Source: Pleurocapsa sp. CCALA 161
GTDB taxonomy: Bacteria > Cyanobacteriota > Cyanobacteriia > Cyanobacteriales > Xenococcaceae
Assembly (NCBI RefSeq): GCF_003003995.1
Contig: NZ_PVWF01000023.1
Coordinates: 1-52,189 of the forward strand
Reading direction: 5' to 3'
DNA: 52,189 nucleotides
Under the pieces are notes generated by a model. It was not told the DNA's origin, ran no database searches, and was given only the letters and a program-made list of their open reading frames with translations. The position numbers and the translations under genes are program-made. Below are positions 10,130-38,589 of this stretch, piece after piece; the first letter of the stretch is position 1; each line of letters opens with the position of its first letter.

Positions 10130-10606
10130 TTAAGATACCATCTTATCAAGAATTTTCTGGACAATTTGCATACCTGTAATCGCTTGCCATCCAAATAAAC
10201 CTAGCAACACAATATTAAGAGAAACGTGAGTATTACGAGCAAGGCTATTACCCTTCTGCATTAAAGGGACTAAAGATGCGGAGACGGCAATTAGACAAGT
10301 CATACCCAACCCCGTCAAAAGATGAGAGCCTACGAAAAGCTTACCGTTGTTAATATAGGTAACTGCCATTGCACCAATATTGCCCAAAACCATCAAAGCC
10401 AACAGGATTGATCCTGCTTGATGATGTCTTTCGCCAAATTTTTGTTTAACTAGCTCTTTTCTAGTTTCTTTATCAGCACTGCGAACTTTTTTATATTGAA
10501 GTCCTAAATACAGTGCATAAACCGCAAGACCTAGCAAAACCCACATGAGAATTGGATGACCAAATTGTGACCAAGTTTTAATGCCATCGGGAATTTCAAA
10601 CGCCAT
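10130..10606 (-). CDS. DUF4079 family membrane protein
   Basis: This 158-residue protein has four predicted membrane helices: ILMWVLLGLAVYALYLGL, SILLALMVLGNIGAMAV, HLLTGLGMTCLIAVSASL and HVSLNIVLLGLFGWQAITG. His residues at helix edges (GHPILMW, RHHQAGSI, GSHLLTG, NTHVSLN) suggest a cytochrome-b561-like haem fold, as proposed for DUF4079; this is an analogy, not a demonstrated function. It is convergent with the DUF1997 gene and divergent from the PKS-AOS gene (196 bases between starts). Confidence 0.85.
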   Translation of the reverse strand: MAFEIPDGIKTWSQFGHPILMWVLLGLAVYALYLGLQYKKVRSADKETRKELVKQKFGERHHQAGSILLALMVLGNIGAMAVTYINNGKLFVGSHLLTGLGMTCLIAVSASLVPLMQKGNSLARNTHVSLNIVLLGLFGWQAITGMQIVQKILDKMVS

Positions 10607-10801: not shown

Positions 10802-13800
10802 ATGCAACTAGAACCCATCGCAATTATTGGTATTGGCTGTCGTTTTCCAGGTGCTGAGAATCCCCAAGCTTTTTGGTCAATGATCCGAGATGGCAAAAGT
10901 GGCATAGTTGAAGTCCCTGAATCTAGGTGGGATGTTGATGCCTATTACGATGCAGATTGTAGTCAGCCGGGGAAAGCTCATACTCGCTGGGGTGGGTTTC
11001 TCGAAGATATAGAGAGTTTCGATCCGCAATTTTTTGGCATTGCTCCCAAGGAAGCAACCACAATGGATCCTCAACAACGTCTTTTGTTGGAAGTGGCTTG
11101 GTCAACTCTCGAAGATGCAGGTCAAATTCCTGAAGATCTTAAAGGTAGTAAAACAGGAGTCTTTATCGGGATTGGGACTCATGATTATTCCATCATGATG
11201 TGGCAACAGCCTGTGAGTGAACCCTATGCCACCACAGGGACAGGTAACTGTATTGCCGCTAATCGGATTTCCTATAGTTTTGATTTTAAAGGCCCTAGTT
11301 TAGCGGTGGATACTGCTTGTTCTTCCTCCTTGGTAGCGGTTCATTTGGCTTGTCAAAGTATTTGGACGGGAGAGTCGGAATTAGCCTTAGCAGGAGGAGT
11401 AAATGTGTTGCTGTTGCCAACAATTATGGTGGGTTTTAGCAAAGGCGGATTTATGTCTCCTCAGGGACGCTGTCAGAGCTTCGATGCAGATGCGGATGGC
11501 TATGTTAGGGGAGAGGGGGCAGGTTTGGTACTTTTAAAACCTCTAGCTCAAGCTCAAGCAGATGGGGATGATATTTATGGGGTAATCATCAGCAGTGCTG
11601 TTAATCAAGATGGTTTAAGTAACGGTTTGGCAGCACCAAATCCCCAGGCTCAAGAAGCGGTATTACGAGAAGCGTATCAAAGAGCAGGGATAGATCCTAC
11701 TCAGGTAGATTATGTTGAGGCACACGGCACAGGAACAAAAGTGGGCGATCCTATTGAAGCGAATGCTTTAGGGGCAGTTTTTGGAGAGCGTCGTGAGTCT
11801 GGAAACAAGTGCTTAATTGGTTCGGTTAAAACTAACATTGGGCATACCGAAACCGCAGCGGGTATTGCAGGAATTATTAAAGTAGCACTGGCACTCAAGC
11901 ATAAGCAGATTCCTCCTAGTTTAAATTTTAACCAACCCAATCCAGCGATCGCTTTTGAAGATCTTAAGCTAAAAGTGGTCACGGAATTAACTCCTTGGTC
12001 ATCGGACAAGCCTTTAATTGCAGGGGTTAATTCTTTTGGCTTTGGAGGGACGAATGCTCATATTGTGATCGGGGAGGTTGAGGATCAGGAAATAAGGCAA
12101 CGGGGAGATGGGGAGAGCAAATCGTCTGAGTTGAATCTGTTGACTCTATCGGCGAAGAGTAAGTCTGCTTTAAAGGAGTTGGCACAAAGTTATTTAAATT
12201 TTATCCCAGATTGCGATCGCTCTTGGGCAGAAATTTGTACGGCGACTCAAACGCAGCGGAGTCATTTTAATCATCGTTTAACCTGTATTGCTAAATCTCC
12301 AGAGCATTTGCAGCAGCAGTTAACAGCTTTTATCACCAACCAAGACGCAGCAGGATTAAGATTTAGCACCGTTAGTAATCAAACCAAGCAAATTTGTTGG
12401 CTGTTTACTGGGCAAGGTTCGCAATATGTGGGGATGGGGCAAGAACTTTATCATATTCAGCCTGTGTTTAAGGAGTCATTAGACCGCTGTGCCACCATTC
12501 TCAATGCTTATTTAGATCGACCTCTATTAGAGGTAATTTTTTCCTTGGATACCTCTGATTATGCCGATCATCAAGCAGAAATTAATCGCACTGTCTATAC
12601 TCAACCAGCGATCTTTGCCTTGGAATATGCCTTGGCGCAATTATGGCTATCTTGGGGAATTAAACCTGATTATGTGGCGGGACATAGTATTGGCGAATAT
12701 GTTGCTGCCTGTATTGCAGGGGTTTTCAGTCTGGAAGATGGTTTAAAGTTGGTTGCCACTAGAGGTAGGTTAATGGAAGAATTGCCCTCGTCAGGAGGGA
12801 TGTTGGCTGTGTTTAGCAGTCAGGTTGAAATTGCCGAATTGATTGCTCAGCATCAGGAAGTAAATATTGCAGCAGTTAATCATCAGCACAATACAGTTAT
12901 TGCAGGCAACATCAATACCCTAGCTATAATTGAAGATAAGCTGGCAAGTTTAGAGATTGCTAGCACTCTACTGGAAGTTTCTCATGCCTTTCATTCTCCC
13001 TTGATGAAGCCGATGCTGGGAGATTTTCGACAAGTAGCGGAGTCTGTTACTTATCATCTGCCTCAGATTCCTCTAGTTTCTAACGTTACGGCACAGCTGG
13101 CAAATGAATCAATTACTAGTCCTGATTATTGGGTTGAGCATATTACTCAACCCGTTAACTTTGCTGATGGGTTTGGGTTTTTGTTAGAGCAAAAAATAGC
13201 GCTCTTTCTGGAATTAGGCGCAAAACCAATTCTTGCTAGTCTTGGCGCAACTATCTCTGCCACAACCGATTATACGACCATTTTGCTGGCGAGTTTATCC
13301 CCTAAGCAACCTGATGAACAAGTAATCTTAAATAGCCTTGCCCAGCTATATCATCAGGGAATAAAAATTAATTGGCGTGAGTTTAACCAGGATATTAATT
13401 ATCCTAGAGTTAAACTACCCAGCTATCCTTTTCAACGTCAGCGTTATTGGTGGGAACAGGCTAAGTTTTGGACTAAAGATGTTCCTGTACAGCAAATACA
13501 TCCTCTATTGGGGAATCCGTTAACTTTAGCAGAGACATCAGAAATACGCTGGATAGGGCAAATTAATGCTTATCTTCCTAATTATCTTCAGGATCATTGT
13601 TTAGAGAGTGAGATTGTCTTTCCCGCAACGGCATATCTAGAGATGGCTTTAGCAGCAGGGTCGAATATTGATGCCAAGAGCATACAGCTAAAAGAATTTA
13701 TTATTCATCAGCCTTTAATCTTGAGCGATAAATCTACTCAACTTCAGACGGTGTTATCTCCTGTTGTAGATTCAGCTTATCGGGTACAGATTTTTACCCG

Positions 13801-16800
13801 TGAGTTAGATAGTGATTCCTTTATGCTGCACAGTGAAGTCTTAATTAGCATTCAATCTGAGGAATTGACTAACAATCTAGACTTGGCTCATCTAAAATCG
13901 CGGTTACAGCCACAAATAGCAGAAATTGCTGATTATTATCAGTCGTTGAGTAAACAAGGCTTAAATTACGGCGTTAGTTTTCAAGGCATTAAACAGATTT
14001 GGCATGGAGAAACAGAAGCTTTAGGCTGTATTCAGTTACCAGATCATTTAAACAGTCAAGCTAGTGACTATCAAATTCATCCTGCTTTACTTGATGCTTG
14101 TTTACAGTTAATTGGCACAGTTAGCGAAGCCAACTCAGGCATATACTTACCCATTGGCATTGAATCTCTAAGTCTGGCTCAAGCTAATCTTAATCAAGTA
14201 TGGGCTTACATAACCATTAAACCCACCATAAACAATCAAACTATTACAGCAGATCTAGTTTTAACCAATGATGCGGGTGCTGTAGTAGGAGAAATTATTA
14301 ATTTATCTCTTCAATATCTTAACTGGCGATCGCTTCAAAAACTCCTCAATATTTCTATTTCTCCATCAGCAAAAAATAGTCTTACTCAACATCTATATGA
14401 AATAGACTGGGAGCAAAAGAGTATAATCAGCCCAGAAACAGCAAAAAAAGCAGAGAATGACTGCTGGCTTATTTTTGCTCAGGATAATCAACTAGTTCAC
14501 CTTTTAACGCAACAACTAGCTGGTATTTTAGTGATTTTAGGCGGCGATCGCTTTAATCAATCTAATACCCATTTATATACCCTCAATCCTAGTCAGGTAG
14601 AAGATTGGCAGAGTTTATGGCAGGCTGTTAACTACCAACCGCAGAATAATGTAAAAATTGCTTATTTTTGCAGTCAGCAAGAACCTGCAAGTAGTAACCT
14701 TTATGCCGAAATATTTAATTTAATCCAGTCTGTAACCAAAGCCAGGCTTAATCTGACTCAATTAAACATTATTACCGAGCAAAGTCAATACAAAGCAACA
14801 AATAATCTGACAGGAGGAGTCTGGGGTTTAGGTCGCACAATACAGCAGGAATATCCCCAGATGTGCTGTAAGTTACTGGATTTTGATAGTTTACAACTTA
14901 ACCATCTGCCCCAAGTATACTCAGAATTACTCGCCTCGGATGGTGAAACCCAAGTAGCGTATCATCATCAGCAAAGATATGTCGCCAGACTAAATCCGCG
15001 TAATAGTATCTTAGATTATCCTTATCGTCTGCAATTATCTGCATACGGCAGTCTCGACAATCTTACCCTCGCACCCATAGAGCGTAAAGCGCCTCAACAA
15101 GGAGAAATCGAAATTGCGGTGGCAGCTAGTGGGGTTAATTTCCGTGATGTGTTAAACGCCTTGGGAGTACTCAAAGAATATCTTCAGGCAATGGGGTTTA
15201 ATGACTCCACAGAAGTACCCTTTGGCGGAGAATGTGCAGGGGTTGTCGTGGCGGTAGGGCAAGGGGTAAGAAATTTCCAGATCGGCGATGAGGTAATTGC
15301 TGCCCAAGCAGTGGGTAGCTTAAGTAGTCATGTAACGGTGCCGGCTAAATTTGCGATCGCCAAACCCCAAAATCTCACCTATAGCGAAGCTGCAACCATC
15401 CCCACTACCTTCTTAACTGCATACTACGGGCTGCATCATTTAGCCCAAATCAAACCAGGAGACAAAATTCTCATTCACGCTGCTGCGGGGGGTGTCGGGC
15501 AGGCTGCGGTACAGATTGCCCAACAGATAGGTGCAGAAGTTTACGCTACTGCTTCTGCTGGCAAATGGGACTTTTTGAAGGCTTCAGGGGTTAAATATGT
15601 AATGAACTCCCGTCATCTGGATTTTGCTGAGGAAGTAATGCAGTTAACGGGTGGCAAGGGGGTAGATTTAATTCTCAATAGCTTAAACGGTGATTTTATT
15701 CCCCAGAATTTAGCTATTCTCGCCCCCAATGGTCGATTTGTGGAAATTGGCAAGGTAGGCATTTGGGATCGATCCCAGGTAGCCGAACAACGAGCCGATA
15801 TTAGTTATTTTCCTTTCGATTTACTAGAGATTTCTCGTCAAGATCCCGATCTGATTAAGCATATGTTTGCTGAATTAATCCAGCAGTTTATTGATGGTAA
15901 ATTACAGCCTCTACCCCACCAGATTTTTCCCATTCAGCAAGCGAATGATGCCTTTCGCTATATGGCACAGGCTAAACACATCGGTAAGGTAGTAATTGAT
16001 TTTCCTACTAATCATCAGGTAGTTACCAGCGACGGCAGCTATTTGATTACAGGCGGCATGGGTGCGTTGGGTTTACAGGTGGCAAACTGGCTAGCCGAAG
16101 AAGGGGCAAAACACTTGATTCTTGTCAGTAGAAACCAACCTGAGATATCTGCACAACAAGAAATTGCTCGCCTCAAACAGCAAGGTATTAAAGTAGAGTC
16201 GATCCAAATTGATATTAGCGATAGTCAAGCTGTAAACGATCTCTTTGAGAGTTTAAATGCGAGTCAAGTTAAGCTCAAAGGCATAATTCACGCAGCAGGA
16301 ATCCTGGATGATGGTCTATTAAAAAGCCTCTCCTGGGAGAGTTTTCAGCGAGTTTTACCGTCCAAAGTTGCTGGGGCTTGGAATCTCCATCAAGCTACGA
16401 AAAAACTATTCCTAGACTGGTTTGTCTGCTTCTGTTCGATCGCATCTACTTTTGGTTCCGCAGGACAAAGTAACTACGCGACTGCTAACGCCTTTATGGA
16501 TAACCTGATTAGTTATCGCCGTCACCAGGGTTTACCAGGTTTAAGCATCAACTGGAGTATTTGGGATGAAGTAGGAATGGCAAGTCGTTTGACTCCCAAA
16601 CAACAGCAAAGATTCAGCCAACAGGGTTTAACTGCGATCGCGCCATCTCAGGGAATAAAAGTACTCAAACAATTATTGCAACAACAGGCAACCCAAACCA
16701 TCGTCTTCCCCGTAGACTGGGCAAGGTTTTTAAGTCAACAACCTGCTAATCCTTTTTTTGAGAGAGTACAGCCACAAGCCAAGGTTCAAAAAGTTCAAAC

Positions 16801-18388
16801 TTCATCTTTCCTCCAGCAGTTAGCCCAAACAAACCCAGCACAACAGCATGATCTTTTACAATCCCACATTCGCGCACAAATAGCCAAGGTGTTAGGCTTT
16901 AGCGATCCTGAAAGTGTTGATATCCAAGAAAAATTTGCCGATTTGGGTATGGACTCCCTGATGGCGGTAGAGTTTAAAAACAATCTCCAGGCTAGTTTTG
17001 GTAATGTGATCTCTTTAACGGCTGCTTTTGATTATCCCAACATCGAGCTATTAACAGCATATGTTGCTCAGGAATTATTAGACGGAAATGTTTTATTAAC
17101 TGCAACAGCCAAAAAGGAATCCCCAAAGCTTACAGCTAAGATACCTGCCGTAAATAAACCGCAAATTACCCCGACAACTAGAAAGAAGATTGACGTTAAA
17201 CTCGAATACAGCCAATTCAAACTCACTCCAGAATATCTCAATCTCAAAAAAGACCTTGAGCGAGTAGAAAAATTAGGCAATCCCTTCTTTAGTCTCCATC
17301 AAGGTGTTGCTCAAGATACAATTCAAACTGGCGATCGCGCCTTAATCAACTACTCCAGTTACAATTATCTCGGCATGTCAGGAGATCCCACTGTCATTGC
17401 TGCCACCCAAAAAGCGATCGCCGAATACGGAACTTCAGTCTCCGCCAGTCGAGTATTATCGGGAGAACGTCCCATCCATCTGGAATTAGAACAGGAAATA
17501 GCAGATTTAATCGGTACAGAGGCAGCGATCGTTTATGTAGGTGGTCATGCTACCAACGTCAGCACTATTGGTCATCTGTTTGGCAAACAAGATCTAATTA
17601 TCTGTGATGCCCTCAGCCACAATAGTATTCGAGAAGGATGTAAGCTTTCAGGAGCAACGATCATTGATTTTCCCCACAATGATTGCCAGGCTTTAGAAGA
17701 GATCTTAAACCGAGAAAGAACCAAATACCACAAAGTCTTAATTGCGATCGAGGGTATTTATAGCACCGATGGCGATCTTGCACCTTTGCCCGAAATAGTC
17801 AACCTAAAGCAACATTATCAAACTTTTCTCTTAGTTGATGAAGCTCATTCAATTGGTGTACTGGGTTTATCTGGCGGGGGAATCAGAGAACACTATCATC
17901 TCCAGGCAAAGGATGTGGATCTATGGATGGGAACTCTCAGCAAATCCTTTGCTAGCTGTGGTGGCTATATTGCGGGAAGTAGTGAACTGATCGAATATCT
18001 CAAATATACTGCTCCTGGTTTTGTCTTTAGCGTGGGGATGTCTCCTGCGAATACCGCAGCAGCTTTAGCAGCGATTAGACTACTCAAGTCTGAACCAGAA
18101 AGGGCGATTAAACTCCAAGCTAAAGCTAAATTGTGCCTTGATTTGGCTAAAAATAGCGGGTTGAACACAGGCAGCAGTGTCGATTCACCTGTCATCCCCA
18201 TTATCGTCGGTGAACCCCATAGAGCAGTGCGTTTGTCACAACTATTAAATCAAGCAGGAATTAACGTTAACCCGATGGTATATCCTTCTGTACCCTACAA
18301 TGCTGCTCGTTTACGCTTTTTTATTACCTGTCTGCATACAGAGGCTCAAATTCAGCAGACAATCGAGGCTGTAATGGCTTCTATTTAA
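10802..18388 (+). CDS. Highly reducing type I polyketide synthase with C-terminal alpha-oxoamine synthase
   Basis: One 2528-residue protein with order KS-AT-DH-(structural KR)-ER-KR-ACP-AOS. KS (about 3-430): Cys173 in DTACSSS, His308 in EAHGTGT, His348 in GHTET. AT (about 530-835): Ser629 in GHSIG; HAFH predicts malonyl-CoA. DH (about 899-1180): His932 and Asp1098, but HxxxGxxxxP reads HCLESEIVFP (Gly to Ser936). ER (about 1410-1735): NADPH loop HAAAGGVGQAA. KR (about 1740-1925): Ser1879, Tyr1892 and LDD, the B-type mark. ACP: Ser2052 in GMDSL. AOS (about 2130-2528): PLP-dependent, DEAHSIG and Lys2381 in TLSKS. With no thioesterase, the AOS is inferred to release the chain by decarboxylative condensation with an amino acid, giving a 2-amino-3-ketone lipid. 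Chain length and amino acid are not readable; iterative action is inferred from the single module. Confidence 0.93.
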   Translation: MQLEPIAIIGIGCRFPGAENPQAFWSMIRDGKSGIVEVPESRWDVDAYYDADCSQPGKAHTRWGGFLEDIESFDPQFFGIAPKEATTMDPQQRLLLEVAWSTLEDAGQIPEDLKGSKTGVFIGIGTHDYSIMMWQQPVSEPYATTGTGNCIAANRISYSFDFKGPSLAVDTACSSSLVAVHLACQSIWTGESELALAGGVNVLLLPTIMVGFSKGGFMSPQGRCQSFDADADGYVRGEGAGLVLLKPLAQAQADGDDIYGVIISSAVNQDGLSNGLAAPNPQAQEAVLREAYQRAGIDPTQVDYVEAHGTGTKVGDPIEANALGAVFGERRESGNKCLIGSVKTNIGHTETAAGIAGIIKVALALKHKQIPPSLNFNQPNPAIAFEDLKLKVVTELTPWSSDKPLIAGVNSFGFGGTNAHIVIGEVEDQEIRQRGDGESKSSELNLLTLSAKSKSALKELAQSYLNFIPDCDRSWAEICTATQTQRSHFNHRLTCIAKSPEHLQQQLTAFITNQDAAGLRFSTVSNQTKQICWLFTGQGSQYVGMGQELYHIQPVFKESLDRCATILNAYLDRPLLEVIFSLDTSDYADHQAEINRTVYTQPAIFALEYALAQLWLSWGIKPDYVAGHSIGEYVAACIAGVFSLEDGLKLVATRGRLMEELPSSGGMLAVFSSQVEIAELIAQHQEVNIAAVNHQHNTVIAGNINTLAIIEDKLASLEIASTLLEVSHAFHSPLMKPMLGDFRQVAESVTYHLPQIPLVSNVTAQLANESITSPDYWVEHITQPVNFADGFGFLLEQKIALFLELGAKPILASLGATISATTDYTTILLASLSPKQPDEQVILNSLAQLYHQGIKINWREFNQDINYPRVKLPSYPFQRQRYWWEQAKFWTKDVPVQQIHPLLGNPLTLAETSEIRWIGQINAYLPNYLQDHCLESEIVFPATAYLEMALAAGSNIDAKSIQLKEFIIHQPLILSDKSTQLQTVLSPVVDSAYRVQIFTRELDSDSFMLHSEVLISIQSEELTNNLDLAHLKSRLQPQIAEIADYYQSLSKQGLNYGVSFQGIKQIWHGETEALGCIQLPDHLNSQASDYQIHPALLDACLQLIGTVSEANSGIYLPIGIESLSLAQANLNQVWAYITIKPTINNQTITADLVLTNDAGAVVGEIINLSLQYLNWRSLQKLLNISISPSAKNSLTQHLYEIDWEQKSIISPETAKKAENDCWLIFAQDNQLVHLLTQQLAGILVILGGDRFNQSNTHLYTLNPSQVEDWQSLWQAVNYQPQNNVKIAYFCSQQEPASSNLYAEIFNLIQSVTKARLNLTQLNIITEQSQYKATNNLTGGVWGLGRTIQQEYPQMCCKLLDFDSLQLNHLPQVYSELLASDGETQVAYHHQQRYVARLNPRNSILDYPYRLQLSAYGSLDNLTLAPIERKAPQQGEIEIAVAASGVNFRDVLNALGVLKEYLQAMGFNDSTEVPFGGECAGVVVAVGQGVRNFQIGDEVIAAQAVGSLSSHVTVPAKFAIAKPQNLTYSEAATIPTTFLTAYYGLHHLAQIKPGDKILIHAAAGGVGQAAVQIAQQIGAEVYATASAGKWDFLKASGVKYVMNSRHLDFAEEVMQLTGGKGVDLILNSLNGDFIPQNLAILAPNGRFVEIGKVGIWDRSQVAEQRADISYFPFDLLEISRQDPDLIKHMFAELIQQFIDGKLQPLPHQIFPIQQANDAFRYMAQAKHIGKVVIDFPTNHQVVTSDGSYLITGGMGALGLQVANWLAEEGAKHLILVSRNQPEISAQQEIARLKQQGIKVESIQIDISDSQAVNDLFESLNASQVKLKGIIHAAGILDDGLLKSLSWESFQRVLPSKVAGAWNLHQATKKLFLDWFVCFCSIASTFGSAGQSNYATANAFMDNLISYRRHQGLPGLSINWSIWDEVGMASRLTPKQQQRFSQQGLTAIAPSQGIKVLKQLLQQQATQTIVFPVDWARFLSQQPANPFFERVQPQAKVQKVQTSSFLQQLAQTNPAQQHDLLQSHIRAQIAKVLGFSDPESVDIQEKFADLGMDSLMAVEFKNNLQASFGNVISLTAAFDYPNIELLTAYVAQELLDGNVLLTATAKKESPKLTAKIPAVNKPQITPTTRKKIDVKLEYSQFKLTPEYLNLKKDLERVEKLGNPFFSLHQGVAQDTIQTGDRALINYSSYNYLGMSGDPTVIAATQKAIAEYGTSVSASRVLSGERPIHLELEQEIADLIGTEAAIVYVGGHATNVSTIGHLFGKQDLIICDALSHNSIREGCKLSGATIIDFPHNDCQALEEILNRERTKYHKVLIAIEGIYSTDGDLAPLPEIVNLKQHYQTFLLVDEAHSIGVLGLSGGGIREHYHLQAKDVDLWMGTLSKSFASCGGYIAGSSELIEYLKYTAPGFVFSVGMSPANTAAALAAIRLLKSEPERAIKLQAKAKLCLDLAKNSGLNTGSSVDSPVIPIIVGEPHRAVRLSQLLNQAGINVNPMVYPSVPYNAARLRFFITCLHTEAQIQQTIEAVMASI

Positions 18389-20516: not shown

Positions 20517-22925
20517 ATGACCAACCAACAGCCAATTCAGATTCCTCATTGTGCCTGGCAACGTTCTATCGGTAAAGGATGGGATCATCCCTACACAGTG
20601 CGTTACGCTAGTAATCTGGATGATGGTCCTTGGCATGGAATGCCCTTAGGAGGAATGGGTGCAGGATGTATTGGTAGATCGAGTAAAGGAGATTTTAATC
20701 TCTGGCATTTGGATGGGGGAGAGCATATTTTCCAGTCTCTCCCCGCCTGTCAGTTTAGTGTGTTTGAACAGATAGCATCAGCTACTCAGGCTTACGCTTT
20801 AAGTACAGAAGCACCAAAGGATAATACTCTGTCTCGTTGGTCATGGTATCCGCAAGAGAAGGGAACTTACAGCGCTTTATATCCCCGCAGTTGGTTTGAG
20901 TATCAAGGAGTTTTTACCACAGATATTACCTGTGAGCAATTTTCGCCTATTTGGGCAGAGAATTATCAGGAATCCAGCTATCCCATCGTTAATTTTGATT
21001 GGACGATACACAACCCTACAGATCAGCCCATCACTTTGAGTATCATGCTGACATGGCAAAATACTGTTGGCTGGTTTACCAACGCGATTAAGTCACCGAC
21101 AATTAAAGTGCGGGATGATGGCAGTCCTGAATATGAATATCAACCTAAGTGGCGCGATAGTACAGGGAACTATAACGAGTGGATTCAGGATAACTATCGG
21201 GTGGGCTGTTTACTCAATCGGGTGCAGCCTCATGAAAATGTTCAAGAAGGGGATGGGCAAATTGCGATCGCCTCGGTTTATAATCCTAGTGTCGAAGTAT
21301 TCTATCTCAGCCGTTGGAATCCCGATGGTGACGGTGGGGAAGTCTGGGACAACTTTGCTGCTGATGGTTCTTTGCCCGACTTACAGGATGAAACTCCCGC
21401 TGATTCTGCTGAACAAATTGCTTGTGCGATCGCAATTCGCTTTACAGTTAAACCAGGTCAAACTAAGACTATCCCTTTTACTCTAGCTTGGGATTTACCC
21501 ATCACTGAATTTAAACAGGGCGTTAATTACTACCGTCGCTACACCGATTTTTTTGGACGCAACGGTAAAAACGCCTGGAGTATGGTGCGGACTTCCCTCA
21601 AGCATAGTGATTTGTGGCGCGAAAAAATTGAGGCTTGGCAACAGCCGATCCTGCAACGGGATGATTTACCCAACTGGTTTAAGATGGCCTTGTTTAACGA
21701 ACTATATTTACTGGCTGATGGTGGTACTCTCTGGACTGCCGCTACCGAAGATGATCCTGTCGGACAGTTTGGGGTTTTAGAGTGCCTGGACTATCGCTGG
21801 TATGAAAGCCTAGATGTGCGCTTATATGGTTCATTTGGCTTGATGATGCTCTGGCCAAAACTGGATAAATCTGTCCTGGAAGCTTTTGCCCGCGCAATTC
21901 CTCACCATGATGATACTCCGCGTATTGTGGGTTACGATCGCTCTAGCGCTATCAGAAAAGAAGCTGGCGCAACTCCTCACGATCTTGGCGCACCCAATGA
22001 GCATCCATGGCAGGAATCTAACTATACTTCCTATCAAGACTGTAACCAGTGGAAAGATTTACCCAGCGATTTTGTCTTGCAGGTATATCGTGACTATCTC
22101 CTCACAGGAAAAAACGACTCCGATTTCCTTTGGGAATGTTGGCACAGCATTACTCTGACTCTGGCATATCTCAAAAAATTCGACCGCGATAACGATGGCA
22201 TTCCCGAAAACTCTGGCGCACCAGACCAAACCTTTGACGACTGGAAACTAAGAGGTATCAGCGCCTACTGTGGCGGACTTTGGATTGCAGCACTCGAAGC
22301 AGCAATTAAGATTGGTCAGATTCTTCTAACTACTCCTCCAACAAATCCTCAACTACAGCCAGAAAATTTCCCGACAGGTATGCAAAATACCCTTGATATT
22401 TATCATAGCTGGTTGCAGCAATCGCGATCGCTCTATCATGATGCTCTTTGGAATGGTGAATACTACCGTCTCGATACCGAAAGTGGCTCTAATGTAGTCA
22501 TGGCAGATCAACTCTGTGGGCAATTCTACGCTCGTTTACTCGGCTTACCCGACGTGGTAGAAGAGCAATATACTATATCTACCCTCAATAAAATCTATGA
22601 TGCCTGTTTCCTCAAATTTCATGATGGTAAATATGGTGCAGCTAATGGCGTGTTGCCTGATGGTAGTGCGGTTAATCCTGATGATACCCACCCTTTAGAA
22701 GTTTGGACAGGAATTAACTTTGGTTTAGCTGCCTTTATGCTGCAAATGGGCATGAAAGAAGAGGCTTTTAAGTTAACTGAAACTGTAGTGAAGCAAGTTT
22801 ATGAGAACGGTTTACAGTTTAGGACTCCTGAAGCGATTACTGCGGTGGGGACTTTTAGAGCAAGTCATTATTTGAGAGCGATGGCTATTTGGTGTATTTA
22901 TGGGGTTTTGAGCGATTGGGAATAA
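20517..22925 (+). CDS. GH116 family glycosidase (GBA2-like glucosylceramidase type)
   Basis: The 802 residues span a whole GH116 enzyme: an N-terminal beta-sandwich (GMPLGGMGAGCIGRSSKGDFNLWH) and a C-terminal (alpha/alpha)6 barrel. By analogy with human GBA2 and bacterial GH116 enzymes, the nucleophile is Glu422 in FGVLECLDYRWY and the acid/base Asp574 in PDQTFDDW; the 152-residue spacing equals that in the characterised bacterial enzyme (441/593). The family hydrolyses beta-glucosides, including glucosylceramide in eukaryotes; bacterial members also take aryl-glucosides and beta-xylosides. No signal peptide. It lies 2.1 kb after the PKS-AOS on the same strand, so a sphingoid-like glycolipid substrate is a testable guess. 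Confidence 0.92.
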   Translation: MTNQQPIQIPHCAWQRSIGKGWDHPYTVRYASNLDDGPWHGMPLGGMGAGCIGRSSKGDFNLWHLDGGEHIFQSLPACQFSVFEQIASATQAYALSTEAPKDNTLSRWSWYPQEKGTYSALYPRSWFEYQGVFTTDITCEQFSPIWAENYQESSYPIVNFDWTIHNPTDQPITLSIMLTWQNTVGWFTNAIKSPTIKVRDDGSPEYEYQPKWRDSTGNYNEWIQDNYRVGCLLNRVQPHENVQEGDGQIAIASVYNPSVEVFYLSRWNPDGDGGEVWDNFAADGSLPDLQDETPADSAEQIACAIAIRFTVKPGQTKTIPFTLAWDLPITEFKQGVNYYRRYTDFFGRNGKNAWSMVRTSLKHSDLWREKIEAWQQPILQRDDLPNWFKMALFNELYLLADGGTLWTAATEDDPVGQFGVLECLDYRWYESLDVRLYGSFGLMMLWPKLDKSVLEAFARAIPHHDDTPRIVGYDRSSAIRKEAGATPHDLGAPNEHPWQESNYTSYQDCNQWKDLPSDFVLQVYRDYLLTGKNDSDFLWECWHSITLTLAYLKKFDRDNDGIPENSGAPDQTFDDWKLRGISAYCGGLWIAALEAAIKIGQILLTTPPTNPQLQPENFPTGMQNTLDIYHSWLQQSRSLYHDALWNGEYYRLDTESGSNVVMADQLCGQFYARLLGLPDVVEEQYTISTLNKIYDACFLKFHDGKYGAANGVLPDGSAVNPDDTHPLEVWTGINFGLAAFMLQMGMKEEAFKLTETVVKQVYENGLQFRTPEAITAVGTFRASHYLRAMAIWCIYGVLSDWE

Positions 22926-32712: not shown

Positions 32713-33879
32713 ATGAAAATTGCCGTAATTGGAGCAAGGGGTATTCCTGCCAAATTTGGAGAAATCGAGCGCTATTGCCAAGAACTATACCCTCAAATCG
32801 TGGCTCGTGGGCATGAGGTAGATTTATATGTTCAACCTAGTTATCATCAGCAATCATGGTTTTCTAGCTTTATTTATCAAAAAATGAAGGTAGTTACCCT
32901 TTTTTCCTTACCAGGAAAGCAATTTACCTGGTTTAACTCGGCTCTTAATACTATTTGGGCAACTTTTGGTAACTATGACGTGATTCACCTGCACGGTATG
33001 GCAGCAGCTTGGTTTGCTTGGTTTCCCCAAATGTTCTCTAATTCATCCATTGTCTTTACCTGTCACCAACTAGAATCTCATGCCGCAAGTTCATCTAAAG
33101 CATTTCGGCGGTTATCATCTTGGCTGGAAAAGATGGCAGTAGACTATGCAGACAAGATTGTAGTTACTACTCACGAGCTAGCAAACTATTTTTTTCGCAA
33201 GTATGGTGTCTGTTCTCATTATATTGCTAACGCTCCAGCTAAATATCAGCAAAACGACATGCAGTTTGGCTTTCGCGAGGCTTTCGGCTTAGAGCAACAA
33301 CAATACATACTGTATTTAGGTACGTTTGAACCTAATCAAAGATTAGATCTATTGATTGAGGTGTTTCAGAAATTACAGCCTCGCAATTGGAAGTTAGTTT
33401 TAGCAGGAGATATTAGCCATTCTTTCCAGCACACCATCAATTTGCTCCAGATGGCTCAACAGCAAAATAATATTATTTTTACTGGAGACATTAGCGGTAA
33501 TTTCTTAGCTGAATTAATGCGTGGTGCAGGTATATTTGTCGAACCTTCTGAAGGTAACAATTTAAGTTTTTCTGTCGGCATGTTAGACGCAATGAGAGCA
33601 GGAATTCCCATCGTGGCTAGTGATACCATGACCCATCGTAAGTTAATTGGTCGCGATCGCGGTTTACTGTTTAAAGCAGGACAATTTGATTCTTTGCTGG
33701 TTCAGCTTGAATATGCCATGTCTCGACCAAATTTACTCTTGACTATGGCTAAAAAAGCGCAGACATATATTGCTATAAACCATAACTGGGATAAGGTAAT
33801 CTACAAAAATTTGTTTTTGTATTTACAGTTAACTACCAAAATACCTAGTCACCAACCGCATCAAGCCATAGATATTTAA
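32713..33879 (+). CDS. Glycosyltransferase family 4, DUF1972-type N-terminus
   Basis: A GT-B fold enzyme of 388 residues. The N-terminal domain begins MKIAVIGARGIPAKFGEIERY, the DUF1972-like start seen in rhamnosyl- and other GT4 enzymes, with DVIHLHGMAA and HQLESH in the acceptor domain. The C-terminal donor-nucleotide domain has LYLGTFEPNQRLDLLIEVF and VEPSEGNNLSFSVGMLDAMRAGIPIVASD, including the E-x7-E-like region. It transfers a nucleotide-sugar-derived sugar, probably for exopolysaccharide or glycolipid. First gene of a three-gene same-strand cluster (gaps 66 and 25 bases). Confidence 0.88.
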   Translation: MKIAVIGARGIPAKFGEIERYCQELYPQIVARGHEVDLYVQPSYHQQSWFSSFIYQKMKVVTLFSLPGKQFTWFNSALNTIWATFGNYDVIHLHGMAAAWFAWFPQMFSNSSIVFTCHQLESHAASSSKAFRRLSSWLEKMAVDYADKIVVTTHELANYFFRKYGVCSHYIANAPAKYQQNDMQFGFREAFGLEQQQYILYLGTFEPNQRLDLLIEVFQKLQPRNWKLVLAGDISHSFQHTINLLQMAQQQNNIIFTGDISGNFLAELMRGAGIFVEPSEGNNLSFSVGMLDAMRAGIPIVASDTMTHRKLIGRDRGLLFKAGQFDSLLVQLEYAMSRPNLLLTMAKKAQTYIAINHNWDKVIYKNLFLYLQLTTKIPSHQPHQAIDI

Positions 33880-33945
33880 GAGCAAAATCACAGTTTTATG
33901 ATGCTCAAGCGCTCTTAGCTCACTGTCAATATTATTCATGCAACC

Positions 33946-35025
33946 ATGTCTTTAAAATTACCGACAGTTTCGATCATTGTTGATGCTTATCAGGGCATTA
34001 GCTATTTACCAGCTACTCTCGATAGTATCCTACAGCAGACCGATGGCAATTTTGAAATCATAGTATTTAGTGACGATTACCGTCAGATCCATACTTGGTT
34101 TAGACGACAGCCAGATACCCGTCTTAAATTTACTGTCCAAAGTAATTTAGGTCTTGCTAATACTCTTAATCGAGGGCTTCTTGAAGCTCAAGGAAAATAT
34201 ATCTCCTTTATTCGCGCTGGAGACTTATGGCATCCCAACAAGCTAGAGCAACAGCTTTTTTGCCTCGATCGCCATCCTGAAGTTGCTTTGATTCACTCTA
34301 GTTCATTGTTGCTCGATTATCAGCATCCTAGCAGACAAACTACAGCCCTGACTGGTTCTTGCGCTAATCGGTCTTTTGCCCGAACGAAAATGGTAAATCC
34401 ATTCAAAAACTTGCTTCAGCAACCAGAAATTTTGGCACAAAACCAGCTTAATCTCTCTTCGGTTATGCTGCGTCGTAGCTGCTTTGAAATGGTCGGGCTA
34501 TTTAATCCTCAATTACAGATTATTCCTGACTGGGAAATGTGGATTAGATTAAGCAACCATTATCAGTTTATGGCGATCGCTGAACCACTAGTATATTGTT
34601 GTCAACGCCAAGATCATCAGTCAAACTGTCTTACTCTCGAAACAGATTTCCAAACAACAATTGAAATAACATATGCCAATGCCAATCTGTCTTCACAGCT
34701 TGAACAAAAATATCGTAGTTATGGCTTTGCCAGTCTATTTTTAGCGCACAATACTTTACAAACGAAAAACCCTGATCTTGCTATTGTACGCAACTACTGG
34801 TATCAGGCACTAATGCACAATCCTTTAATAATTTTCTCTCTAGAGTTTTGCCAACTACGCTGGTCAATTTTTCGTCAACATTTTCGCCTATATTGTCGGC
34901 AGCAATACCGCCATCTACTGCAATTAATTCAGAATGCAAGTCGCTTTAAAATCGCGATTTCTCCAACTAGACGTAGCCAAGATGTCTTCAACTGGATGCT
35001 TGAATCTGAAGAAGGTAGTAACTAA
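33946..35025 (+). CDS. Glycosyltransferase family 2
   Basis: The 359-residue GT-A enzyme opens with PTVSIIVDAYQGISYLPATLDSILQQ, the GT2 nucleotide-binding strand and loop. GLANTLNRGLLEAQGKYISFIRAGDLW holds the region of the metal-binding DxD motif, here Ala-Gly-Asp rather than classical Asp-x-Asp; DWEMWIRLSNHY is the acceptor-side base region (Glu-Met-Trp). No membrane segment is visible, so peripheral or cytosolic. It probably adds a sugar in exopolysaccharide or lipid-glycan assembly with its two neighbours. Confidence 0.87.
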   Translation: MSLKLPTVSIIVDAYQGISYLPATLDSILQQTDGNFEIIVFSDDYRQIHTWFRRQPDTRLKFTVQSNLGLANTLNRGLLEAQGKYISFIRAGDLWHPNKLEQQLFCLDRHPEVALIHSSSLLLDYQHPSRQTTALTGSCANRSFARTKMVNPFKNLLQQPEILAQNQLNLSSVMLRRSCFEMVGLFNPQLQIIPDWEMWIRLSNHYQFMAIAEPLVYCCQRQDHQSNCLTLETDFQTTIEITYANANLSSQLEQKYRSYGFASLFLAHNTLQTKNPDLAIVRNYWYQALMHNPLIIFSLEFCQLRWSIFRQHFRLYCRQQYRHLLQLIQNASRFKIAISPTRRSQDVFNWMLESEEGSN

Positions 35026-35050
35026 AAACTATACAGGGAGCAATTAAATA

Positions 35051-36196
35051 TTGTCTAAAATCATTTTGATTCATACCCAAGCTGGGATTGATTGGAAAAA
35101 TAATTCCGCAGTTTTTGCTGTTGAGCTAGCGCGCCGTCTAGATAATTATTTTGAAGTGGAACTTTTAAGCGGCGCTGAATGTGGTTCTTTTAGTCGTCCG
35201 ATTCACTCTCTAGCTGCTAGTAGCGATCGTTTAGCTAATCCTTGGATGTCTAACTTACTCAATCGTCGGTTGCCACAACCTAAGATGGCGATCGCTCAGA
35301 TGATCAGTTTTTTACCCTGTATTTCCTATCTGTTAAATCACCCCGCCGATTTAATTGTGCCTCAAAATGGTTATGCTGGTTTGTTGGCAGCCAATTTTGT
35401 CAGAGCAATCAAACAAACCCCCATTTTATTTACCGACCATAGCAGCTTAAATCAGGAAAAAAATCTGGAACGCAATTTAACTCTTAAGCCCAATCGCTTA
35501 ATTACCCTTAATCCGATCATCGCTAAACATGTACGTAGATTAGCACCAAACCAAATAGTCGATACTATTCCACTAGGAATCGAGCCGACAGAATTTATGC
35601 CCGAAGGTAAAGCAATGATGACTGGCTTACCTCAACCTTGCATTATTACTGTTGCTCCTTTAAAGCGTTATAGTGACCAAAGAATTGAATTAACTATCAA
35701 AGCAGTTGCTCGCCTTTCCCAAGCCAGTCTCTTAATTTGTGGTGATGGTGTCGATCGCGATTATTTTCAGGCATTGGGCGATCGCTTATTAGGTTCAGGG
35801 CGATTCCAAATTAGAACTTTTGCCTATGCTCAAATGCCCCAAGTCTATCGTAGTGGAACTATTTTTACTTCAGCAGCGGTTCAAGAATCTTGCGGATTAA
35901 AATTCATCGAGGCGATGGCTTGCGGTTTACCCGTTGTGGCTATGGATAATCCAGTTCATCGCTATTTAATTGGCAATGGTGGTATTACCTGCGACCTAAC
36001 TAATCCTGATTTATATGCCAATTCTTTACAATCGGCGATCGCTAGGCACTGGCAACAGCAACAACCAAGACAAAATGCCTTGAGATTTAGCTGGCAGGGC
36101 ATAACTCTATTATATTATCAAGCAATTCTCAAAACTATGACCACCTACAATCATCGATTTTCTTCAGCCAACTCCCATCCGTCTATCAACGGCTAA
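35051..36196 (+). CDS. Glycosyltransferase family 4, TTG start
   Basis: The 381-residue protein is GT-B: SKIILIHTQAGIDWKNNSAVFAVELARRL at the start, LFTDHSSLNQEKNL in the acceptor domain, TVAPLKRYSDQRIELTIKAV and VQESCGLKFIEAMACGLPVVAMDNPVHRYL in the donor domain (E-x7-E at Glu-Ser-Cys-Gly-Leu-Lys-Phe-Ile-Glu). The start is TTG at 35051-35053; AGGGAG at 35035-35040 gives it a good ribosome-binding spacing and no ATG fits. Last gene of the glycosyltransferase cluster, 25 bases after the GT2 gene. Confidence 0.87.
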   Translation: MSKIILIHTQAGIDWKNNSAVFAVELARRLDNYFEVELLSGAECGSFSRPIHSLAASSDRLANPWMSNLLNRRLPQPKMAIAQMISFLPCISYLLNHPADLIVPQNGYAGLLAANFVRAIKQTPILFTDHSSLNQEKNLERNLTLKPNRLITLNPIIAKHVRRLAPNQIVDTIPLGIEPTEFMPEGKAMMTGLPQPCIITVAPLKRYSDQRIELTIKAVARLSQASLLICGDGVDRDYFQALGDRLLGSGRFQIRTFAYAQMPQVYRSGTIFTSAAVQESCGLKFIEAMACGLPVVAMDNPVHRYLIGNGGITCDLTNPDLYANSLQSAIARHWQQQQPRQNALRFSWQGITLLYYQAILKTMTTYNHRFSSANSHPSING

Positions 36197-36891: not shown

Positions 36892-36893
36892 AT
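36874..36893 (+). repeat. 20-bp direct repeat, left copy
   Basis: CACAAAAGTTAAATCATCAT occurs here and again, perfectly, at 38638-38657. This copy runs up to and covers the first two bases of the haloperoxidase start codon. The copies are 1764 bases apart and bracket the whole gene plus its terminator. Confidence 0.85.
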
Positions 36894-38589
36894 GGAACAA
36901 GATCTTAGAGTTCAATTTGGGGAGATAGAACAAGCCCCAACTACCTATCCTGACGAACAAGGTCGGGTACAGGTAACAATCACTAATGATGGCAATGAGA
37001 GTCTAACTGATGGCAGTCTCAATCTTTACGCATCCAATGATGGAGAGCTAGACTTAGATAATCTCAATAGCAACGATGACTATATTGAAGGCACAGAGAT
37101 TAATTCTTTAAAGGGAACAGATGAGCTGTTAGGCACTCTCGAAGGAATTGATCTGGCGGCAGGGGAATCTCGTACTGTTGATATCGACTTTGCTAGTGAG
37201 GAGTTCACTAATCCTAGCGTCGTCTCCCCTGGAGTATACAATCTAGGGGCGGTCATCGATCCTAATAATGCCGTTGCGGAAAGCGATGAGAACAACAATC
37301 AGGCGATCGAGCCTGTTTCTCCCGATGGGACTGATGCAATTCTTGATTGGAACTCGGTATTTTTAAATGCCAGTGAGACTCAAGGCAAACTGGATGCAGC
37401 AAATGGAGTTACATTAACTGAAGATACTGTACCTGGAGAAGCACCACCAATCCAAGCTCATGACGCTGCGATCCTCTCGATCGCTCAATATGAAGCTATC
37501 AACGCTATTAGTGCCATCAATGGTGGTGAATCTCCTTACTTGGACGGTTCGATTACTCCTCCAGAAGGGGCATCGGCAGAAGCAGCAGCAGTGGGGGCAG
37601 CCTATCAAGTTTTAACCACTCTGTTCCCCGAACAGGCAGCCACTTTTGAACTACAAAGACAAGAATCACTAGCGGAAATTAACGATAGTGAGTCAGCAGA
37701 AAGCTCGGGTTTTGATTTTGGGGTGCAAGTTGCCAATAATATCTTGGAACAGCGGGCAAACGATGGTGTTGACCAAGCACAAATACCCCTGGATCAAACA
37801 AACTACTATGAAAATACAGAGGCAGGACCACCTAGTGCAGTTCTTCTGGCAGGTTTTGGGGATGTCGATCCTTTCGCGATTAGTAGTGCCGAAGATTTTC
37901 GTCCTGATGGACCACCTGAGTATGGCAGTGAAGAATTTGTTCAAGACACTGAAGAGGTGCGATTATTAGGAGGAAAAAGTGATACCGATGTTACTCAGAG
38001 TTTGCGGACAGAAGAGCAAACTGAAATCGCTCAATTCTGGGCCCTTGATCGCAACGATAGTTTTAGACCCCCTGGTCAGTGGATTGACATTGCTCAGGAA
38101 GTAGCATTAGACCAGGGTAATAGTTTAGAAGATAACGCTAAATTGTTTGCTCAACTCAACGTCGCCCTAGCTGATGCTGGTATTGTTATCTGGGATACTA
38201 AATTTGAATTTAATCAGCAGCGTCCTTATAACTCGATTGTAGAAGACGATATAGCAGGTGTAACTAACGATCCTGAATTTGAACCATTGCTTAATACACC
38301 TCCTTTCCCCGACTATATTTCAGGACACTCTGGCTTCGCTGGTGCTGCTGCTAGTGTTTTGGAAAGCTTCTTTGGTGAAGATGTTACTTTTGAAGTTGCT
38401 TCTCAAGAACTACCAGGTGTGACTCGCGTTTTTGATGGTAATGGCGATCAAAATAGCTTCCAAGAAGCAGCAGAAGAAGATTCTGTTAGTCGCGTTTATG
38501 GTGGAATTCACTTACGTAGTTCCGTTGAAGATAGTCTGGCGACAGGTCAAAATGTTGGACAGTATGTAGCTGAGAATTTCTTGGCTTAA
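36892..38589 (+). CDS. Vanadium-dependent haloperoxidase/PAP2 enzyme with N-terminal CARDB domain
   Basis: A 565-residue acidic fusion. Residues 1 to about 140 look like a CARDB beta-sandwich (GRVQVTITNDGNESLTDGSLN, AVAESDENNNQ). The rest is a PAP2/vanadium haloperoxidase: Lys437 and Arg444 (KFEFNQQRP), Ser477-Gly478-His479 (PDYISGHSG), and Arg534 with His540 (SRVYGGIH), the vanadate-ligand His by family analogy. All vanadate-pocket residues are present. Members oxidise halide with hydrogen peroxide, forming hypohalous acid; substrate halide is not readable. No Sec signal peptide is visible, but the acidic composition and the adhesive-like domain suggest an extracellular protein, perhaps by type I secretion. 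It is flanked by perfect 20-bp direct repeats. Confidence 0.88.
   Translation: MEQDLRVQFGEIEQAPTTYPDEQGRVQVTITNDGNESLTDGSLNLYASNDGELDLDNLNSNDDYIEGTEINSLKGTDELLGTLEGIDLAAGESRTVDIDFASEEFTNPSVVSPGVYNLGAVIDPNNAVAESDENNNQAIEPVSPDGTDAILDWNSVFLNASETQGKLDAANGVTLTEDTVPGEAPPIQAHDAAILSIAQYEAINAISAINGGESPYLDGSITPPEGASAEAAAVGAAYQVLTTLFPEQAATFELQRQESLAEINDSESAESSGFDFGVQVANNILEQRANDGVDQAQIPLDQTNYYENTEAGPPSAVLLAGFGDVDPFAISSAEDFRPDGPPEYGSEEFVQDTEEVRLLGGKSDTDVTQSLRTEEQTEIAQFWALDRNDSFRPPGQWIDIAQEVALDQGNSLEDNAKLFAQLNVALADAGIVIWDTKFEFNQQRPYNSIVEDDIAGVTNDPEFEPLLNTPPFPDYISGHSGFAGAAASVLESFFGEDVTFEVASQELPGVTRVFDGNGDQNSFQEAAEEDSVSRVYGGIHLRSSVEDSLATGQNVGQYVAENFLA

Follow-up and report, generated by a model that had tools for sequence, protein, structure and literature searches.

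What does a cyanobacterium make with a protein in which a fully reducing PKS module runs directly into an alpha-oxoamine synthase (AOS)? Release of a PKS-type chain by an AOS is known from the fungal sphinganine-analogue pathways (fumonisin) and from SxtA of saxitoxin. We analysed a fused gene of this kind in a 52,189-nt stretch of DNA, hereafter the window, from Pleurocapsa sp. CCALA 161, the assembly of which comprises 5.37 Mb in 249 contigs.

In Pseudomonas fluorescens MYb115, the two-gene PKS system SgaA/SgaB is described as making sphinganines from serine, and 6101 homologous SgaAB-type clusters are reported in a paper whose main text, as accessible, does not contain the word cyanobacteria (PMC12134224). 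By 2022, the number of sphingolipids identified in cyanobacteria stood at two, according to the accessible text of PMC8895605, which assigns no gene to either and which reports for Nostoc punctiforme a single, BioF-like AOS and no sphingolipid. The open-licence PMC literature, to the extent of its accessible text, yielded no report of the fused cyanobacterial PKS-AOS, its partner set or its product. PKS-derived sphingolipids are already known from SgaAB, and it is the one-protein cyanobacterial form with its own partner set that appears to be new.

Domains and catalytic residues of the fused gene

Pfam assigned the domain order KS-AT-DH-(pseudo-KR)-ER-KR-ACP-AOS to a single ORF, in agreement with the architecture and coordinates given by a first-pass annotation of this DNA, whose domain list did not include the KR-like stretch (PF21394).

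10802..18388, + strand: fused PKS-AOS gene, 2528 aa, one ORF
10811..12076, + strand: ketosynthase (KS), Pfam residues 4-376, C173/H308/H348
12398..13315, + strand: acyltransferase (AT), Pfam residues 533-838, GHSIGEY with S629, HAFH (H728-A-F-H731)
13499..14323, + strand: dehydratase (DH), Pfam residues 900-1174, H932 and D1098
14384..15001, + strand: non-catalytic KR-like linker domain in the DH/ER interval, PF21394, residues 1223-1363
15032..16006, + strand: enoylreductase (ER), Pfam residues 1433-1732, nucleotide-binding stretch HAAAGGVGQAAVQ
16034..16570, + strand: ketoreductase (KR), Pfam residues 1745-1923, K1855/S1879/Y1892/N1896, LDD motif
16868..17065, + strand: acyl carrier protein (ACP), Pfam residues 2023-2088, S2052
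17219..18385, + strand: AOS, Pfam aminotransferase class I/II (PF00155) residues 2181-2523, H2273/D2346/H2349/K2381

The KS starts 3 residues past the initiating Met, with no N-terminal extension. The HAFH motif of the AT presumably selects a malonyl-type extender, and the chain would be fully reduced. In the AOS, the PLP lysine, Asp and His residues of the family were all found (K2381, D2346, H2349 and H2273), and in an alignment K2381, the lysine that the first-pass annotation had named, occupies the position of K244, the PLP lysine of Sphingobacterium SPT. The absence of a thioesterase noted there was likewise borne out among the 23 Pfam families listed.

Conservation and distribution

All catalytic residues that were looked for were present, as had been claimed, and those of the KS, AT, DH, KR, ACP and AOS do not vary across 11 aligned full-length sequences, the window protein and ten relatives that share 49-91% identity with it; identity to relatives is lowest in the KR-like linker. 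The ratio dN/dS for the whole gene was 0.22 against relative G003 and 0.16 against G002, and it was below 0.5 in all eight domain segments measured. Invariant residues together with purifying selection argue that the PKS-AOS is the result of neither chance nor decay, and a decayed or chimeric gene was ruled out on these grounds.

The search for the same domain order in other cyanobacteria that the first-pass annotation had proposed returned 13 complete single-ORF copies besides the window, and all were in cyanobacteria. Ten of these are in genomes G002, G003, G006, G010, G012, G013, G018 (Xenococcus sp. PCC 7305, of the same family as the source genome), G048, G154 and G324; the remaining three are in Chlorogloea CCALA 695, on plasmid p3 of Planktothrix agardhii NIVA-CYA126/8 and in G506. 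Within the family, 10 of 25 genomes (the source genome included) carry the fused gene, and G005 and G009 have fragments only. A survey of 386 genomes of the phylum, the source genome included, which scored at most three candidates per genome and so gives lower bounds, found an AOS of the PKS/ACP kind (E <1e-120) in at least 19 genomes and found it inside a single ORF of more than 2400 aa in at least four (G000, G048, G324 and G154).

Two copies are of separate note. The fused gene on contig C515 of G005 (L086) looks broken, with several ORF pieces, an ER-like stretch running into the AOS and one in-frame stop; the G005 assembly is fragmented. A fused PKS-AOS filed under Candidatus Gracilibacteria (L088), with 71% identity in the AOS, is nested among the cyanobacterial ones, and its filing is probably a binning error.

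Kinship of the AOS

To place the AOS, a quick tree of 119 rows (114 different) was computed, which carried long-branch warnings at the deep forks, so that the order of its outer groups is unsure. The AOSs with the window's architecture, 19 rows of which 16 are different, form one clade (SH-aLRT 99); these rows include two genes cut at contig edges (L088 and L089) and one gene split over two ORFs (L092). The clade sits inside a 109-row clade of carrier-protein AOSs (SH-aLRT 100) that also holds free-standing, ACP-fused and ligase-ACP-fused AOSs as well as SgaB-like AOSs. The SgaB-like rows, which come from Bordetella, Achromobacter and a Pseudomonas plasmid and stand in as proxies for PfSgaB, form a subclade of their own (7 rows, SH-aLRT 100). 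E. coli BioF and Kbl, cyanobacterial BioF (itself a separate clade) and Sphingobacterium SPT fall outside the carrier-AOS clade. The phylogeny called for by the first-pass annotation thus places the AOS with PKS- or ACP-partnered enzymes, SgaB-like ones included, and release as a 2-amino-3-ketone, as first suggested, remains the best reading.

Of the worked-out systems found, SgaAB comes closest. Both it and the fused gene combine a single KS-AT-DH-ER-KR-ACP module, lacking a thioesterase, with a carrier-type AOS, and a long-chain 2-amino-3-ketone is the expected release product of both; two SgaA-like PKSs share this domain set and likewise begin with the KS itself. SgaAB is, however, encoded by two adjacent genes, whereas the window has one ORF, and the genes that accompany the fused form (see below) differ from those of SgaAB. 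In the Pseudomonas plasmid locus L167, the PKS and AOS genes are followed by an SDR gene five genes on; we judge L167 to be an SgaABC-type cluster by its layout, which matches the MYb115 locus numbers in the accessible text of PMC12134224.

Other members of the AOS family share parts of the window's design. The acyl-bearing carrier protein is fused to the AOS in TamD (tambjamine), as it is described, and in cyanobacterial ACP-AOSs of about 530-580 aa (Moorena L096 and contig C216 of the source genome), but these proteins have no PKS on the same chain, and the cyanobacterial ones lie elsewhere in the AOS tree. A cyanobacterial AMP-ligase-ACP-AOS (L072, 1081 aa) also has its ACP fused to an AOS of this family, but its chain is activated by the fused acyl-AMP ligase and not built by a PKS. 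SPT, BioF and Kbl have the AOS family and PLP residues in common with the window AOS but are free-standing. Other PKS-AOS fusions (source contig C55, Kibdelosporangium L161 and Streptomyces plasmid L197) fall outside the window's clade, which indicates that the fusion arose more than once; no ER was seen in the C55 protein, and L161 has only a KS and an AT beside its AOS.

Amino acid substrate

The solved chains closest to the AOS by sequence are serine palmitoyltransferases. In SmSPT, the residues near L-serine are given in the accessible text of PMC10196870 as Asn52, Gly80, Ser81, His138, Thr241, Ser243, Lys244 and Met271. The window has Y2187, A2215, S2216, H2273, T2378, S2380, K2381 and V2408 at these sites, identical to SmSPT at five of the eight and to the SgaB-like rows L137, L156 and L167 at seven of the eight. 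His138, Thr241 and Lys244 are identical in BioF and Kbl too, and the Tyr at position 52 is found clade-wide. Since the matches are partly common to BioF and Kbl, they suggest L-serine as the substrate but do not prove it. PfSgaB, for which L167 was chosen as proxy by gene layout, is reported to have a near-exclusive preference for L-Ser when compared with Ala and Gly (PMC12134224, accessible text).

Origin of the PKS half

A tree was computed for 46 KS rows, 39 of them different. It groups the fused KSs in a single clade (19 rows, 98/99) and sets the SgaA-like KSs apart in a clade of their own on a long branch (6 rows, 100/100); how these two clades and a further two, made up of other cyanobacterial PKSs, branch relative to one another was not resolved. 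A constraint uniting the fused and SgaA-like KSs was not rejected (AU p 0.32); in the same analysis the fused rows joined 11 other cyanobacterial KSs at 56/77 only. In a KS+AT tree of 31 rows, the fused and SgaA-like sequences share the same side of a branch with support of 78/76, which is not significant. Identity to the five SgaA-like rows that have both domains is 24-29% for the AT and 46-52% for the KS, and AT identity to the six nearest other cyanobacterial rows is 45-50%. These identities lean away from SgaA kinship, and in the trees direct common ancestry of the two PKS halves is neither demonstrated nor rejected. The idea that the PKS half is of separate stock from SgaA was dropped for this reason.

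Recurrent partner genes

In relatives, six genes are found repeatedly alongside the fused gene. They encode a GT39/PMT-like polytopic protein, a GT4 of 410 aa, a PagL-like barrel, a FAAL, an alpha/beta hydrolase (DUF1400) and M563, a polytopic protein of 563 aa for which Pfam gave no match. This partner set, together with the SgaAB system and the distribution of the gene, had been overlooked by the first-pass annotation, whose interpretation of the PKS-AOS is supported in part. In the congener G012, all six and the PKS-AOS lie within about 19 kb. On P. agardhii plasmid p3, a FAAL, two GT39, the hydrolase, M563 and a GT4 surround the PKS-AOS; no PagL match was found in 48 kb of the plasmid. None of the six lies inside the window, and in the source genome all six are present but scattered over three other contigs: C24 carries GT4, GT39 and PagL next to one another (73, 64 and 71% identity to G012), C79 has the FAAL adjacent to the hydrolase (76 and 70%), and M563 is on C201 (63%). 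A 3-keto reductase or SDR gene of the SgaC kind does not recur in the partner set of the relatives' loci.

The four PagL proteins that were aligned keep a His-x-Ser motif at the position of the PagL active site. The best NCBIfam names for the GT4, all below threshold, include lipid glycosyltransferases.

PagL was found in 3 of 386 phylum genomes: the source genome, G048, where it lies beside the fused gene, and G341, a weak match with no partners around it. Two of the three carry the fused gene (Fisher p = 0.0002 with the source genome, 0.016 without). A second draw of 388 genomes of the class gave nine PagL carriers, the source genome and G048 among them. In two of the seven new carriers, G506 and G564 (LEGE 11477), the PKS-AOS adjoins PagL or is one gene from it, running off the contig edge in G564. 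GT39 is close to PagL in G486 and G562, and GT4 also in G562, on short contigs; in G504, G524 and G526 (a weak PagL match), neither the PKS-AOS nor the glycosyltransferases were found within about 10 kb of PagL.

In the 25 family genomes, PagL is present in 8 of 10 with the fused gene (no match in G005 and G013) and in 3 of 15 without (p = 0.005; 0.010 without the source genome). The corresponding counts are 10 of 10 and 3 of 15 for M563 (p = 0.0001; 0.0003) and, for FAAL relatives at 55% identity or more, 9 of 10 and 5 of 15 (p = 0.012; 0.013). All these Fisher tests ignore shared ancestry; the cut-offs of 50% (M563) and 55% (FAAL) were set after the lists were inspected, and G015 was counted as M563-positive on fragments and G004 as PagL-positive on a weak match (2.4e-5).

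Proposed pathway and alternatives

On balance, the gene and its relatives favour a pathway in which a PKS-made chain is released by the AOS as a sphinganine-like aminoketone that is later reduced, glycosylated and placed in the outer membrane. The fully reducing module, self-contained, would build or elongate a long, saturated acyl chain attached to its ACP. The fused PLP-dependent AOS would then free this chain through a decarboxylative condensation, with L-serine as the likeliest amino acid, to give a 3-keto-sphinganine-like 2-amino-3-ketone. The base would next undergo reduction, and the GT4 and GT39 partners would glycosylate it; the lipid would be placed in the outer membrane, where the PagL-like enzyme might remove an acyl chain held by an ester bond. 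These steps after release are proposals drawn from gene context, from which we infer a glycosylated outer-membrane aminolipid as the product.

How the chain is started bears on the claim of the first-pass annotation that the module must work iteratively. Iterative use is plausible and is favoured by the lack of a loading part or N-terminal extension, as in the two SgaA-like PKSs; PfSgaA is called iterative in the accessible text of PMC12134224. The word "must" goes too far, as a related FAAL is present in most of the family genomes with the fused gene and a second PKS lies nearby in two genomes, directly upstream in G154 and, as an AMP-ligase-KS-AT-DH-ER-KR-ACP protein, on P. agardhii p3, so that the chain could begin from a fatty acid or be handed on by an upstream module. 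A non-iterative route to the same product class is a serious contender that falls somewhat short of an even chance: the FAAL would supply a fatty acid as starter, the PKS would extend it by one or a few malonyl units, and release would again fall to the AOS. The association of FAAL with the fused gene, its place inside the G012 and P. agardhii clusters and the AMP-ligase-plus-ACP genes near the PKS-AOS in G324 and G048 fit this route. The only ACP of the window PKS, however, follows the KR, and the protein has neither an ACP nor an extension at its N terminus, whereas another PKS of the source genome (C216), which is ligase-loaded, has an AMP-ligase and an ACP at its own N terminus, and the FAAL could act in another step such as N-acylation. 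As to the amino acid, it is unlikely that the AOS uses alanine, glycine or another residue to give 1-deoxy-type bases. Members of the family do vary in their amino acid, most of the contact positions compared are not specific to serine enzymes, and the NCBIfam scores are mixed and below cut-off (357 bits against 426 for bioF, TIGR00858; 328 against 640 for SPT-CFB), so that neither family assignment, including that of classical SPT, is made; but the agreement with the SgaB-like rows at seven of eight positions, the SYNYLG stretch that also occurs in human SPTLC2 and the position of BioF outside the clade speak for serine.

The destination of the product can be questioned in two ways. TamD, an ACP-AOS, is assigned to tambjamine biosynthesis in the accessible text of PMC4698589, and the patchy distribution of the fused gene and its plasmid location in P. 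agardhii would suit a diffusible secondary metabolite; with a PagL-like barrel, glycosyltransferases and polytopic membrane proteins as partners, we regard such a product as improbable in place of a membrane lipid. It seems less probable again that the partners co-occur with the PKS-AOS through shared ancestry only and are unrelated to its product. The PKS-AOS does lie apart from the six partners in the source genome, G002, G003, G006 and G018, only GT39 adjoins it in G010, and its downstream neighbours differ between the window and G003 despite 92% gene identity. Against this, at least one partner lies within a few kb of the PKS-AOS in seven genomes (G009, G012, G048, G506, LEGE 11477, CCALA 695 and P. 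agardhii) that span several families or orders.

The PKS-AOS family offers a definite candidate for the source of a cyanobacterial sphingoid base from a PKS instead of SPT, with PagL, GT39 and GT4 predicting where the lipid goes, and a chain builder and AOS releaser in one protein is an attractive biocatalyst. More tentatively, the locus may specify a novel lipid class in which the FAAL, the hydrolase and M563 act on or with the PKS-AOS base, GT4 and GT39 add sugars and a PagL-type barrel remodels the lipid at the surface. If so, the Pleurocapsa group and some other cyanobacteria would produce an outer-membrane glycolipid of a class not yet described, analogous to a glycosphingolipid or to lipid A but made by a PKS.

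Neighbouring genes and other AOS loci

The neighbours of the PKS-AOS in the window include the following.

10130..10606, - strand: DUF4079 membrane protein, 158 aa, just upstream of the PKS-AOS
20517-22925, + strand: GH116 beta-glucosidase family protein, a glucosylceramidase relative, two genes downstream

The DUF4079 gene is a possible neighbour gene only; homologues also lie near the PKS-AOS in G003 and LEGE 11477, and this proximity may be chance. The GH116 gene, an M42-like peptidase gene and a TamB gene were rejected as partners, with no match in the relatives' loci compared. A pentapeptide gene was also rejected; its weak matches in L055, L062 and L064 (37-40% over about 90-120 aa) were put down to its repeats. 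Elsewhere in the window, a CARDB plus vanadium-chloroperoxidase/PAP2-like protein (36892-38589, + strand) comes right after three glycosyltransferases (32713-36196).

The source genome holds further AOS loci. Contig C216 encodes a 2812-aa AMP-ligase-ACP-KS-AT-DH-ER-KR-ACP PKS (L225:1970-10405) and, about 3 kb away on the other strand, a 540-aa ACP-AOS (L067:10784-12403), a second system; of the 25 family genomes, 24, the source genome included, have an ORF of the ACP-AOS type (536-582 aa), and G005 has part of one at a contig edge. On C55 (L069), a contig-edge PKS lacking an ER ends in ACP-AOS and is followed by DUF1254/DUF1214, SDR and sulfotransferase genes, possibly a pathway to a sulfated aminolipid or amino-alcohol. 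Outside the cyanobacteria, the Planctomycetota loci L111-L165 encode many proteins of about 1130-1220 aa that end in an AOS of the same clade as the window's.
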